A stretch of DNA of 64,000 nt from an uncultured Granulosicoccaceae bacterium. GTDB taxonomy: Bacteria > Pseudomonadota > Gammaproteobacteria > Granulosicoccales > Granulosicoccaceae. A program made the translations under genes and the position numbers. The notes beneath the pieces were generated by a model. That model did not search any database, was not told the DNA's origin, and was given only the letters and a program-made list of their open reading frames with translations. Shown here one piece after another: positions 24,829 through 64,000 of this stretch. The stretch is taken from the NCBI GenBank assembly GCA_937957915.1, contig CALGNZ010000046.1, forward strand, positions 1-64,000. Direction: 5' to 3'. How positions within the stretch are numbered: position 1 is the first letter of the stretch; every line of letters begins with the position of its first letter.

Positions 24829-26139
24829 CTAACCAAGGCTTTCCACACGAATTCGAACAACAGCACCCTCAACGGACTTGAGCTGTTCCAGTTGTGCAAT
24901 CGCCGCATCCATTGCGCCTTCCACGATCTGCTTTGTCAGTAGTACGATGGGCAATTTACTGGAACCGGAAGCTGGTCCTTTTTGGATAATCGCCTCGATA
25001 TTAATATTTTGATCGGCGAGTATCCTGCTTATATCTGCCATCACCCCGGGCACATCTTCCGCCAGTATTCTCAGGTAATAGGAAGTCTGAAATTCGCTAC
25101 TGGGAACGGTGCGGCTCTCGTTGATAGAGTCGTGCTGGAACGCCAGCACCGGTACTCTGTTGTGCACATCTGCCGAGGCCACTCTGACCACATCCAGTAT
25201 ATCGGCCACCACGCTCGAGCCGGTGGGCTCAGCTCCCGCACCAGCGCCGTAATACAGCGTCGGCCCTACCGCATCAGCTTGCACCAGCACCGCATTCATC
25301 ACCCCGTCAACATTGGCAATTAAACGCCGCTCGGGCAATAGTGCCGGATGCACCCGCAATTCAATTCCGTTACCCGTATCAATCGCCAGGCCGACATGTT
25401 TTATACGATAGCCGAGCTCTTCAGCATAGACCGTATCTTCCTGTGTGATATGACTGATGCCCTCGGTATACACCGCATCAAATTTCAACGGAACCCCGAA
25501 TGCGATCGAGGCAAGAATTGTCAATTTATGCGCTGCATCTATTCCCTCAACATCAAAGGTAGGATCCGCCTCGGCATAGCCAAGCGCCTGCGCTTCATCC
25601 AGTACTTCCGGGAAATCTCTTCCTTTATCTCTCATCTCGGTGAGTATGTAATTACTGGTACCGTTAATAATTCCCGCAAGCCACTGAATTTTGTTACCGG
25701 CCAGTCCCTCTCTTATCGACTTGATCACCGGGATACCTCCGGCAACTGCTGCTTCAAACGCAACGCTCACCCCGTGTTTTCTGGCAGCTTCGAAAATCTC
25801 GTTGCCGTGCACGGCAATTAACGCCTTGTTGGCGGTGACCACATGTTTACCATTGGCAATTGCCTTTAGCAGCAGCGACCGTGCTGGCTCATCACCGCCC
25901 ATCACCTCGATCACCACATCAATTTCAGGATCGTTGACAATGTCGTCATGATTAGTAGTTAGTGCTACGCTGGCAAGCTCCGGCGCACGCTCTCGACTGA
26001 TATCGCGCACCGCTGCAGACTTTACAATGATATCCCGACCGGCCCGGCGATTTATCTCTACTGCATTTCTGGCCAGCACAACAGCTGCGCCCTGACCGAC
26101 CGTACCAAAGCCAAGGAATCCAATTTTTACCGGGTTCAA
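24829..26139 (-). CDS. hom: Homoserine dehydrogenase
   Basis: Hom reduces aspartate semialdehyde to homoserine, the branch point to methionine and threonine. The 436-residue protein has the Rossmann motif GFLGFGTVGQG near residues 7-17, the VVTANKALIA and AAVAGGIPVI regions, GIINGTSNYIL for substrate binding and a C-terminal ACT domain (about 350-430) for feedback control. It is the monofunctional form, not fused to aspartate kinase. The start is a TTG at 26139, favoured by an AGGTGAG ribosome-binding site seven bases upstream; no ATG is available. thrB and thrC are not adjacent. Confidence 0.95.
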   Translation of the reverse strand: MNPVKIGFLGFGTVGQGAAVVLARNAVEINRRAGRDIIVKSAAVRDISRERAPELASVALTTNHDDIVNDPEIDVVIEVMGGDEPARSLLLKAIANGKHVVTANKALIAVHGNEIFEAARKHGVSVAFEAAVAGGIPVIKSIREGLAGNKIQWLAGIINGTSNYILTEMRDKGRDFPEVLDEAQALGYAEADPTFDVEGIDAAHKLTILASIAFGVPLKFDAVYTEGISHITQEDTVYAEELGYRIKHVGLAIDTGNGIELRVHPALLPERRLIANVDGVMNAVLVQADAVGPTLYYGAGAGAEPTGSSVVADILDVVRVASADVHNRVPVLAFQHDSINESRTVPSSEFQTSYYLRILAEDVPGVMADISRILADQNINIEAIIQKGPASGSSKLPIVLLTKQIVEGAMDAAIAQLEQLKSVEGAVVRIRVESLG

Positions 26140-61134: not shown

Positions 61135-62334
61135 CTATAAGTTTGTTATTGCATCGAAACCGGATTGCAAATCTGCCTGTATATCCACCACCGACTCAAG
61201 TCCAACGGCCACTCGTATTAATGAACCACTAATACCTGCCGCCTCGCGTTGCTGATCAGACAAACGTCCATGTGTAGTGGTAGCCGGGTGTGTAATCGTA
61301 GACTTAGCATCCCCCAGATTGGCGGTAATAGATAGCAAATTACAACTGTCGATTACCCGCCATGCTGATGTGCGCCCACCCACCACTTCAAAAGAAACGA
61401 TTCCGCCAAAGTCGCTTTGTTGCCTGCAGCAAAGCTGATGCTGGGGATGACTTTCCAGCCCTGGGTAATACACACGGGATACTTGCGGGTGTTGCTCCAG
61501 CCATCGCGCCAGTGACAACGCACTTTCACTGTGACGGGCCATTCTGATTTCAAGTGTCTCCAGCCCTTTTAAAAATACCCAGGCGTTAAAGGCACTCATT
61601 GTCGGACCGGCGGTGCGCAAAAAGCCAAACACCTCATCACCCATGTCTTGCTTGTTGCCCAACACCGCGCCACCAACACAGCGCCCCTGCCCGTCGATAA
61701 ACTTCGTGGCTGAGTGAATCACCACGTGTGCGCCATGTTCGAGCGGCCGTTGCAACGCAGGTGTACAAAAACAGTTATCGACAACCAGCCGCGCATTAGC
61801 CTGTCGCGCCAGTTCTGCCAACGCCGCAATATCCACCAGTTTGGTCAACGGATTTGATGGCGTTTCAACGAACAACATGCGTGTCCTTGGGGTAATTTTC
61901 TCGCGCCATTGATCTATATTGTCCGGCGCCGCGAACTGCACAGGGTTGCCCATTCGTGTCAGATACTTGTTAAAGAATTGTGCTGTTGAGCCAAACAATC
62001 CATCAGATGCAATCAACTCATCACCCGGCTGTAACAGCGAGACACAAGTCGCCATTATTGCTGACATACCCGACGCCGTTGCCACGCACGACTGCGCACC
62101 TTCCAGCGCCGCTAACCGTTGCTCAAAGGTTCGCACAGTCGGGTTGGTAAACCGTGAATAGATATTACCCGGCGCATTGTTTTGAAATCGATCAGCAGCT
62201 TGTGCTGCATTGTCAAAAACAAAACTTGATGTAGCAAACAGCGCCTCGCTGTGTTCGCCTTCCGCAGTTCGCTGGTAACCTGCACGCACTGCGGTTGTTG
62301 AAAAACTCGCCTGCGACCAGTCTGTATTACTCAT
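61135..62334 (-). CDS. metZ: O-succinylhomoserine sulfhydrylase
   Basis: MetZ makes homocysteine from O-succinylhomoserine and sulfide. The 399-residue Cys/Met-metabolism PLP enzyme has YSRFTNPTV, TASGMSAIMA, VDNCFCTPALQRP and the Schiff-base Lys211 in HSATKFIDGQGR. Its position downstream of purF matches Pseudomonas and relatives. A promoter and a SAM-II-like riboswitch precede it, with the start codon about 207 bases beyond the aptamer. Homoserine for this pathway comes from hom at 24829. Confidence 0.95.
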   Translation of the reverse strand: MSNTDWSQASFSTTAVRAGYQRTAEGEHSEALFATSSFVFDNAAQAADRFQNNAPGNIYSRFTNPTVRTFEQRLAALEGAQSCVATASGMSAIMATCVSLLQPGDELIASDGLFGSTAQFFNKYLTRMGNPVQFAAPDNIDQWREKITPRTRMLFVETPSNPLTKLVDIAALAELARQANARLVVDNCFCTPALQRPLEHGAHVVIHSATKFIDGQGRCVGGAVLGNKQDMGDEVFGFLRTAGPTMSAFNAWVFLKGLETLEIRMARHSESALSLARWLEQHPQVSRVYYPGLESHPQHQLCCRQQSDFGGIVSFEVVGGRTSAWRVIDSCNLLSITANLGDAKSTITHPATTTHGRLSDQQREAAGISGSLIRVAVGLESVVDIQADLQSGFDAITNL

Positions 62335-62540
62335 GACTATCTTCGTCCGCTATAAACGCTGTAGGTGTTAACAATTTAAATGCACCGCTCACTGCCGTAT
62401 CTGACAAAGACAGCTCGGCATGTGCGGGTAACGCGCACGAAGCAAATAGTGTTTGCGGATTTTTGGGAGGGCGTGGTGTCGGGGTAGATCTGCATGGATC
62501 TGTGACAGGTGGGCCCACCATTCACTAGCAGCGGGCCGAA

Positions 62541-62594
62541 GCACGCTTTAGCTGAATTTTTCAAGCGCCCGCAAGCTGTATCAAATCGGCGCGT
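62541..62594 (-). ncRNA. SAM-II-like riboswitch aptamer upstream of metZ
   Basis: Read on the minus strand, ACGCGCC is followed by GATTTGATACAGCTTGCG, GGCGC, TTGAAAAATTC and AGCTAAAGCGTGC. The five-base stem GCGCC/GGCGC corresponds to P1 of SAM-II. The loop has the conserved GATTT and TTGC. The 3' strand has TGAxAAATxxAGCTAAA, as in the metX riboswitch of the crystal structure (TGATAAATGTAGCTAAA). The bases CAGC in the loop can pair with GCgTG at the 3' end, with one bulge, as the pseudoknot. The aptamer starts at the predicted transcription start. The related SAM-V class is the main alternative. Ligand binding is inferred from pattern only. Confidence 0.72.
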
Positions 62595-62599
62595 AGAGA

Positions 62600-62627
62600 A
62601 TTATGCACCCACTGACAGGGGTGTCAA
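62600..62627 (-). promoter_or_regulatory. metZ promoter
   Basis: On the minus strand a perfect TTGACA (62622-62627) and CATAAT (62600-62605, 5 of 6) are 16 bases apart. Transcription would start at about 62593, at the first base of the riboswitch, about 260 bases before the metZ start codon. The rest of the 62335-62706 interval shows a GTGGGCCCAC palindrome (62510-62519) and no terminator T-tract. Confidence 0.75.
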
Positions 62628-62706
62628 GTCAATTTGCTGTGCTGCTCTGACTTAGCTCGGAATAAATTTTGAAGAGCAACTTATCTTACGGCGTTCGGAG
62701 GAAAAG

Positions 62707-63303
62707 TTACCCGATAAAAACCGCGGTATCTGTATTGACCAATCCAAATAATTCAACCACATCAGAATTGGCCATACGGATGCAGCCTTCGGACATGGGC
62801 TTACCAAGTAAATGTTCCTGTGCTGTACCATGTATATAGATATAGCGATTTTTTGAATCAACCTGCCCGCCCTGATTAAACCCGGGTTGCAGACCACTGA
62901 GCCACAAGATTCTACTGGTAATAAGATCATCTGCACTGTCAGAAGATAGATCCGTGGCTAGCCCGGTTACCCTGCGACCTTTGAAAATTGTCCCCGGGGA
63001 TACATCCTCACCAATTCTCTCTGCAACAACGTGCCAGCCTATCGGAGTACAACCTGTGTTTTGACGACAGCCTGTTCCGAACTTTGATGTTGAAATTATA
63101 TACGTATTCTTTAGTTTCCCGTCGACAACATAGTCAAGGGTTTGCAATCTGACATCGATGCACAGCATTTTCTCAGGCGGTTGCAGATCACAATCAGAGA
63201 CTTCGCCACCGCGGTCAAGCGTCAGCCGGCTCAACACAAACGCAGCATCAAACGCTGTGCTGTCTAGCCGCGAGCTGAAGTTGTCCCACCAGGTGCCATA
63301 CAT
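62707..63303 (-). CDS. L,D-transpeptidase (YkuD domain) without signal peptide
   Basis: The 198-residue protein consists almost entirely of a YkuD catalytic domain, with YIYIHGTAQEH and the active-site SEGCIRMANSDV. The FGTGCRQNTGCTPIGWH segment is typical of a compact family lacking signal peptides. How it reaches peptidoglycan is therefore unclear. The start is ATG at 63303 with AGG nine bases upstream; TTG 63363 would overlap the purF end by 23 bases. It lies between purF and metZ, which are usually adjacent. Confidence 0.82.
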   Translation of the reverse strand: MYGTWWDNFSSRLDSTAFDAAFVLSRLTLDRGGEVSDCDLQPPEKMLCIDVRLQTLDYVVDGKLKNTYIISTSKFGTGCRQNTGCTPIGWHVVAERIGEDVSPGTIFKGRRVTGLATDLSSDSADDLITSRILWLSGLQPGFNQGGQVDSKNRYIYIHGTAQEHLLGKPMSEGCIRMANSDVVELFGLVNTDTAVFIG

Positions 63304-63340
63304 ACGAGGTTGCCTGTGACCAGCGCGCCAGTTACTCCAG

Positions 63341-64000
63341 TCAGTCCATACCGACGTCGACAAATTGCTCGTCAGTCGCTGACTCGTTTACAGCATCCGC
63401 CCGCTTGCTGCTTAGCCAGTTTAAATAATCCTCATTGATATCGCCGGCTATGTAGTGCCCGTCAAAGCAACTGGTTTCAAATTGCTGCAAATCAGCGTTG
63501 AGCTCACGCACCGAATCGATAAGGTCCTGCAAGTCCTGGTAAATTAATCCATCGGCACCTATGGCCAGGCAAATTTGCTCTACCTGCCGATCATGGGCGA
63601 TCAGCTCATCGGCAGCAGGCATGTCAATGCCATAGACATTGGGATAGCTCACCGGTGGGGCAGCTGATGCCATGTAAACCTTGTTGGCGCCCACTTCACG
63701 TGCCATCTCGACAATTTGTTCAGACGTTGTGCCCCTGACAATCGAGTCATCCACCAACAGCACGTTCAGGCCTTTAAATTCAGACTCAATGGGATTGAGC
63801 TTCTGCCTGACCGATTTGCGACGCATAGTCTGCCCGGGCATGATAAAAGTTCGGCCGATGTAGCGGTTCTTTACAAACCCTTCGCGATACTTGATTCCTA
63901 ACTCCATTGCCAATTCCAGCGCAGACGTTCGGCTGGTATCTGGAATGGGAATAACCACGTCAATATCGTGATCAGGCCAGGTTTTGCGAATTTTTGCTGC
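63341..64000 (-). CDS. purF: Amidophosphoribosyltransferase, C-terminal part
   Basis: PurF makes phosphoribosylamine, the first step of purine synthesis. Only the last 219 residues are in the window; the gene continues past the right edge. The visible part has [12 protein letters not shown], the [17 protein letters not shown]-like region and the PRPP-binding [17 protein letters not shown], followed by [17 protein letters not shown]. Translation before the internal Val at 63958 is open to base 64000 with coding-like residues. The end runs close to the L,D-transpeptidase start, consistent with one transcript. Confidence 0.95.

Follow-up and report, generated by a model that had tools for sequence, protein, structure and literature searches.

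A SAM-II riboswitch ahead of metZ in a Granulosicoccaceae genus, with a possible platform for translational control at a distance

A SAM-II riboswitch aptamer lies directly ahead of metZ in the window, by which we mean the whole stretch of 64,000 nucleotides analyzed, from an uncultured Granulosicoccaceae bacterium. The element is ordinary in its identity and in its target gene, and unusual in its expression platform. The intrinsic terminator that usually follows the aptamer in the class Gammaproteobacteria is missing or weak in this genus. Leaders of the genus carry above-chance complementarity between the 5' half of the aptamer and a distal stretch, and locking of the aptamer is predicted to make the metZ Shine-Dalgarno sequence (SD) less accessible. 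These computations suggest a platform characteristic of the genus, with exceptions. We consider the chances about even that the element is an OFF switch on metZ that acts on translation at a distance, via long-range pairing. The features of the locus are collected in Table 1.

Table 1. Features of the metZ leader in the window (positions are those of the window)
Feature	Position	Strand	Basis or remark
-35 box TTGACA	62622..62627	minus	read from window sequence
-10 box CATAAT	62600..62605	minus	read from sequence; P1 begins 7 nt later
SAM-II (SAM_alpha, RF00521) aptamer, covariance-model extent	62527..62602	minus	27.9 bits, E 5.2e-4
P1 5' strand GCGCC	62588..62592	minus	pairs with 62569-62565
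P1 3' strand GGCGC	62565..62569	minus	pairs with 62592-62588
Predicted outer P2 pseudoknot 5' strand UAC	62578..62580	minus	with GUG 62544-62542
Conserved 3' tail GCUAAAGCG	62544..62552	minus	alignment of aptamers
Putative proximal switching strand GGCCCGCU	62530..62537	minus	complementary to P1 3' region GCGGGC and SD GCGG
Putative distal anti-aptamer	62393..62442	minus	30 predicted base pairs with aptamer nt 2-34; coordinates hand-converted
Shine-Dalgarno region GCGGA	62346..62350	minus	starts 16 nt before metZ
metZ, O-succinylhomoserine sulfhydrylase	61135..62334	minus	NF006003 660.7 bits, cut-off 522

The SAM-II identity of the aptamer is near certain. When 1.1 kb (61900-63000) was scanned against all 4227 Rfam families, the RF00521 match spanned positions 1-79 of the 79 in the model, and SAM-V was not among the four matches at E<=10. 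The other three, all sub-threshold and on the plus strand (62444-62625, 62250-62326 and 62595-62654), were taken as chance. The original prediction had read TTGACA, a 16-nt spacer and CATAAT, followed by P1, the loop and the 3' part in SAM-II order. The sequence bears this out, and the covariance model confirms the aptamer, although its score falls below the 36 bits that RF00521 requires for gathering; at that threshold the window gave no Rfam match. The gathering cut-off is an annotation threshold and not a defining property of SAM-II. Seven places in the whole genome matched at E<=10; the window locus scored highest (E 6e-4), and the runner-up, at 16.1 bits, was 11.8 bits lower; all 14 control genomes also gave RF00521 matches at E<=10, none above the cut-off. 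Two orthologues from the same genus pass the gathering score (G010, 40.1 bits; G009, 37.6 bits). A model made from 21 orthologous leaders, the window included, scored the window at 82.6 bits, partly by construction. We are highly confident that the element is a real SAM-II riboswitch; SAM is its predicted ligand.

Only two of eight tested loci (L009 and L011) passed the Rfam gathering score, and the remaining six (L014, L127, L013, L018, L025 and L123) are clear metZ SAM-II orthologues below it. Since clear orthologues fall below the cut-off, automatic annotation undercounts the SAM-II class.

The aptamer, beginning 7 nt after CATAAT, reads GCGCCGATTTGATACAGCTTGCGGGCGCTTGAAAAATTCAGCTAAAGCG, with GATTTGATACAGCTTGC as its loop and AAAAATTCAGCTAAAGCG as its 3' part. 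It was aligned with others in a set of 21, made up of the 14 loci of the genus and seven more directly before metZ; fetched loci without metZ were set aside. The core GAUUU..UUGC..AAAU..GCUAAA is present, and most of these columns are invariant in 21/21. All five P1 pairs are formed in every one of the 21 aptamers; since four pairs are invariant and one varies on one side, P1 offers no covariation to judge by. The outer P2, whose register was fixed by comparison with known SAM-II structures, is paired in 84% of the cells of this alignment, and its middle pair in the window is A-U, both nucleotides being changed relative to the prevailing U-A. Covariation in the outer P2 was weak over 108 loci, the count for the middle pair being reached by 112 of 2000 shuffles and that for the third pair by 239 of 2000. 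The tail GCUAAAGCG is predicted to be the SAM-binding strand, which we assume by analogy with known SAM-II structures.

The arrangement resembles that of the RF00521/metA element of Corbino et al. 2005 (PMC1273637): P1, loop, predicted pseudoknot and GCUAAA tail follow in the same order, a promoter stands just ahead of P1, a methionine gene lies downstream and the whole is kept in relatives. Unlike RF00521, the window element reaches only 27.9 bits, its outer P2 has only about three pairs, no terminator was found in its leader and it does not overlap the SD.

A promoter of the form TTGAC[A/T]-16-[C/G]ATAAT precedes the aptamer in 14/14 leaders of the genus. Because the -10 box is only 7 nt ahead of P1, the transcript in the window probably starts at the aptamer. 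The gene behind it had been called metZ from the sequence, and the NF006003 score, well over its cut-off, bears this out. The placement of the start codon 207 bases beyond the aptamer also held, with the ATG at 62334 as against 62541. In the window 258 nt separate P1 and the start codon; the other loci of the genus have 123-204 nt there, with start codons that were in part hand-picked, two of them GTG. A hom gene had likewise been placed in the same window, and a homoserine dehydrogenase domain (PF00742) was found at 25195-25731 on the minus strand. The upstream neighbor (62707-63363, minus strand) shows similarity to an L,D-carboxypeptidase/transpeptidase, with 145.7 bits for NF040925 against a cut-off of 270.

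Within the genus metZ stands directly behind the aptamer in all 14 genomes. Averaged over 91 pairs, pairwise identity came to 0.93 in the aptamer, 0.72 across the first 300 nt of metZ and 0.53 in the leader between them; from the aptamer and leader values we conclude that the aptamer is under selection while the leader is nearly free. Among 57 genomes of relatives, its own included, 25 match RF00521 at E<=0.1 and five of these exceed the cut-off. The weak matches mean little, since three of the 14 control genomes also match at E<=0.1. A custom model, built on the 21 aptamers with P1 as the sole structure, matched 14/14 genomes of the genus and 20/48 in the order. In one other genus of the family (g4, 27 genomes) a single weak match (E 0.004) is the only trace of the element; genera g2, g3 and g5 have it.

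The expression platform was compared with that of a class sample. This comprised 27 new loci from the survey of the class, 60 from lower on its score-ranked list and L009, L010, L014 and L017, 91 in all, or 90 after the loss of L193, in which the motif was not found; it leans to high scores and includes a few second copies from one genome. L125, a partial match beside metZ in G014, was dropped. Within the first 130 nt, 78 of the 90 loci have a hairpin at or below -5 kcal/mol that is followed by a T tract, and 77 have one under -9 kcal/mol. The typical terminator is CCTGCTTTAGC..GCGGGTTTTTTT followed by a T tract, and its 5' arm can pair with the aptamer tail by at least eight base pairs in 72 of the 78, as a terminator/antiterminator switch would show. 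Corbino et al. 2005 (PMC1273637) saw that many SAM-II elements are followed by terminators, and PMC9373788 gives transcription termination as the predicted mode of the S. meliloti metZ SAM-II.

The genus shares with these terminator-bearing loci an orthologous aptamer ahead of an orthologous metZ. Where gammaproteobacterial metZ SAM-II elements typically have CCTGCTTTAGC..GCGGG and a T tract some 35-50 nt beyond the aptamer, the genus has at most weak candidates. Across whole leaders, 0/14 loci have a hairpin and T tract at less than -9 kcal/mol, and the 213-nt leader of the window gave no such candidate of any strength. Weak hairpins resembling terminators occur in L015 (-8.1 kcal/mol, interrupted T run) and L019 (-5.4 kcal/mol). 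One of four loci in other genera of the family, L027, has a weak hairpin of -6.6 kcal/mol before T8. Most sampled relatives thus couple the same orthologous pair of aptamer and gene to a terminator, and this genus couples it to no strong one; since both forms exist for one pair, a change of platform can be tested directly by leader swaps.

When leaders were folded without constraint, the 5' half of the aptamer was found in a duplex with a distal stretch. Its mean pairing with the leader was 0.62 in the genus against 0.35 in the class, where leaders are shorter. In the window the duplex amounts to -36.2 kcal/mol (z -3.05, p 0.005, 400 dinucleotide shuffles). An initial test of the 15-nt P1 3' part alone had reached p<0.05 in just two of 21 loci, and because of this it was widened, after the folds had been seen, to the whole aptamer 5' half. 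With aptamer nt 1-40 the mean z was -1.75 over the 14 loci of the genus (Fisher chi2 84.5, 28 df) and seven loci singly gave p<0.05; these combined statistics overstate the case, since the 14 leaders are related and represent, in our judgement, perhaps seven lineages. The corresponding mean over 74 metZ leaders of the class was -0.11, with 7/74 under -1.5. The duplex and accessibility tests used class loci whose estimated start fell within 60-300 nt. The exceptions in the genus were L015 (z 0.60) and L021 (z -0.47), which fail the test. Omitting the proximal 18 nt left the mean z at -1.71, with five of 14 loci singly at p<0.05 and L026 falling to z -0.40.

Several further comparisons bear on this duplex. 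The 3' end of the anti-aptamer lies 20-32 nt ahead of the metZ start in 10 of the 14 loci (null 0.16), a range picked after seeing the data; in the window it ends 58 nt before the start, outside that range. Behind P1, one variable nucleotide of the linker forms a Watson-Crick pair in 13/14 loci (GC 7, AU 4, UA 1, CG 1), where 6.1 would be expected (P 3e-5), although this site too was picked after seeing the data. Pitted against foreign aptamers, a leader's own duplex was best in 4/14 loci and beat the mean of the others in 11/14, which supports the pairing weakly. Four loci in other genera of the family showed no anti-aptamer (z 1.2, -0.9, 0.1 and 0.6). Twelve class loci without a terminator averaged z -0.29; L180 (-3.4) and L213 (-2.2) stand out, and the feature is not shared by them as a group. 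The putative distal anti-aptamer sets this genus apart from the terminator-type metZ SAM-II of other Gammaproteobacteria.

The second feature of the platform is the SD itself. GCGG, which also occurs in the aptamer next to the P1 3' strand, is found at -30..-5 of metZ in 10/14 loci of the genus, as against 8/75 class loci and 6/45 long frames of the window; class start codons were extrapolated from tblastn, which makes the class counts less exact than the genus ones. The SD of the window is of modest strength (-3.2 kcal/mol). The effect of the aptamer on the SD was computed by forcing P1 and masking the remainder of the aptamer, in folding that was pseudoknot-free, at equilibrium and ignored co-transcriptional order. 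With the aptamer locked in this way, the SD was predicted to be less accessible in 12 of the 14, in nine by more than 0.1 (mean 0.19). In controls, 60 leader shuffles per locus gave about 0.03, and five of the 14 loci stood singly at <=3%; the combined value (Stouffer 4.96) is inflated by the relatedness of the loci. In the window predicted accessibility fell from 0.46 to 0.17, and in the locked fold GCGGA pairs with GGCCCGCU at 0.93. The change went in the wrong direction in L026 (-0.15) and L024 (-0.02). Over 73 class loci the mean change was 0.04, with 23 over 0.1 and 11 under -0.1. An earlier, noisier measure, the mean over an 18-nt SD window, was positive in 10/14 loci of the genus, in some by just 0.01-0.04.

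These features can be joined in a single model. In the absence of SAM, the aptamer 5' half would sit in a long-range duplex with its complement, usually just upstream of the metZ SD, and the SD would stay open. With SAM plentiful, the aptamer would fold on itself through P1 and the pseudoknot and release the switching strands; the freed GGCCCGC, the CCGC of the anti-aptamer or both would then pair with the SD, GCGGR, block initiation and turn metZ off. The SD holds the same GCGG as the aptamer, and a switching strand would pair either with the SD or with the unfolded aptamer. This logic also applies to the class terminator switch, because the 3' arm of the terminator, AGCGGG, copies the GCGGG of the aptamer. 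Swapping that arm for an SD with GCGGR would convert one platform into the other. We propose, tentatively and at somewhat less than even confidence, that in one gammaproteobacterial genus a terminator-type SAM-II became translational by gaining a distal anti-aptamer (20-34 base pairs) near the start codon and an SD copying the aptamer GCGG. SAM binding, the direction of the switch, its action on translation and the evolutionary order are all parts that we infer. If the model is true, ligand binding at the 5' end would decide ribosome access 120-260 nt away by an exchange of look-alike strands.

PMC9373788 describes a Sargasso Sea metagenome SAM-II with which the window shares the aptamer core and the proposed translational OFF logic; there the SD is part of the pseudoknot, and here it lies about 190 nt behind the aptamer. 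The suspicion that control must differ from SD overlap in this bacterium stands. A literature search over titles and abstract openings, with subscription journals largely outside its reach, returned nothing on the platform of gammaproteobacterial metZ SAM-II or on a distal SAM-II anti-aptamer.

Other explanations were weighed against translational control by long-range pairing. SAM-II could turn metZ off through Rho-dependent termination, the SAM-bound, untranslated leader exposing, between aptamer and metZ, a C-rich, G-poor stretch for Rho loading. A long leader and the lack of an intrinsic terminator fit this, and the window has a 78-nt stretch (C/G 3.2), starting 31 nt after the aptamer, that is reached by 3% of mononucleotide shuffles. 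However, the stretch is not conserved, at least 18% of shuffles reaching the observed value in the other 13 leaders, and the anti-aptamer and SD features are left unexplained. We regard this route as unlikely, if the best placed of the alternatives.

An intrinsic terminator of the kind seen in other Gammaproteobacteria, its hairpin overlooked by the detector, is a distinctly unlikely explanation. A GGCCCGC/GUGGGCC hairpin does stand right after the window aptamer, in the same place as the class terminator, and the frequency of terminators in the class (78/90, with 72/78 arms able to pair with the aptamer tail) and the weak candidates in L015 and L019 speak for it. This hairpin is not followed by a T tract, however, the leader of the window holds no candidate, and under -9 kcal/mol the genus scores 0/14 against 77/90.

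Control through a standby site, in which ribosomes for a distant start codon are drawn to an SD located within the riboswitch, we hold to be improbable. A precedent is S. meliloti metA, reported in PMC9373788 as a SAM-II that acts on a start codon 74 nt further downstream, and the two cases are alike in the translational control proposed for a distant start codon. In S. meliloti the SD is within the riboswitch with a terminator between; here it is next to the start codon, and the proposed mode is long-range pairing. GAGG does occur in the tails of L011, L012 and L026, but the tail of the window, GCGUGCUUC, has no SD and its start codon has its own GCGGA.

The original prediction had also offered an upstream frame as the direct target; if such a frame were conserved, metZ could follow by translational coupling. 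The window does contain a 64-codon ATG frame (62327-62521, minus strand) that ends 8 nt inside metZ, but it has no conserved counterpart in the genus: out-of-frame ATG frames of at least 15 codons ending <=8 nt from the metZ start occur in just three of the 14 leaders (L001, 64 codons; L019, 39; L021, 28). We give this alternative very little credence, and the metZ SD itself, reached via long-range pairing, would be the more likely direct target. A relic aptamer without present function, or a chance match, as the score below the Rfam cut-off might suggest, is hardly credible given an aptamer identity of 93% against 53% for the leader and its presence in 14/14 genomes of the genus.

The occurrence of SAM-II in this gammaproteobacterium had been thought worth confirming. 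Its presence is supported (27.9 bits, and 14/14 genomes of the genus), but its exceptional status is not, as the custom model matched 187 of 369 sampled Gammaproteobacteria genomes at E<=0.01, by our reading 14 of them only at E>1e-6. A 2009 paper (PMC2704228) lists SAM-II for Alpha-, Beta- and Gammaproteobacteria; in another (PMC4239095), which covers about 200 proteobacterial genomes, SAM_alpha is reported from Rhizobiales and Rhodobacterales only. Our survey indicates that SAM-II is common in Gammaproteobacteria and lies mostly before metZ in the loci examined (75/90). Among named metZ loci, 14 of 80 were scanned with the custom model and gave a single partial match (L045, E 0.14). Locus L142 (G376:C57) carries a tandem pair of SAM-II-like aptamers about 115 nt apart, with no metZ found on the locus. 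Some gammaproteobacterial genomes hold several SAM-II copies, with eight matches at E<=0.01 in G293, six in G404 and four in G338.
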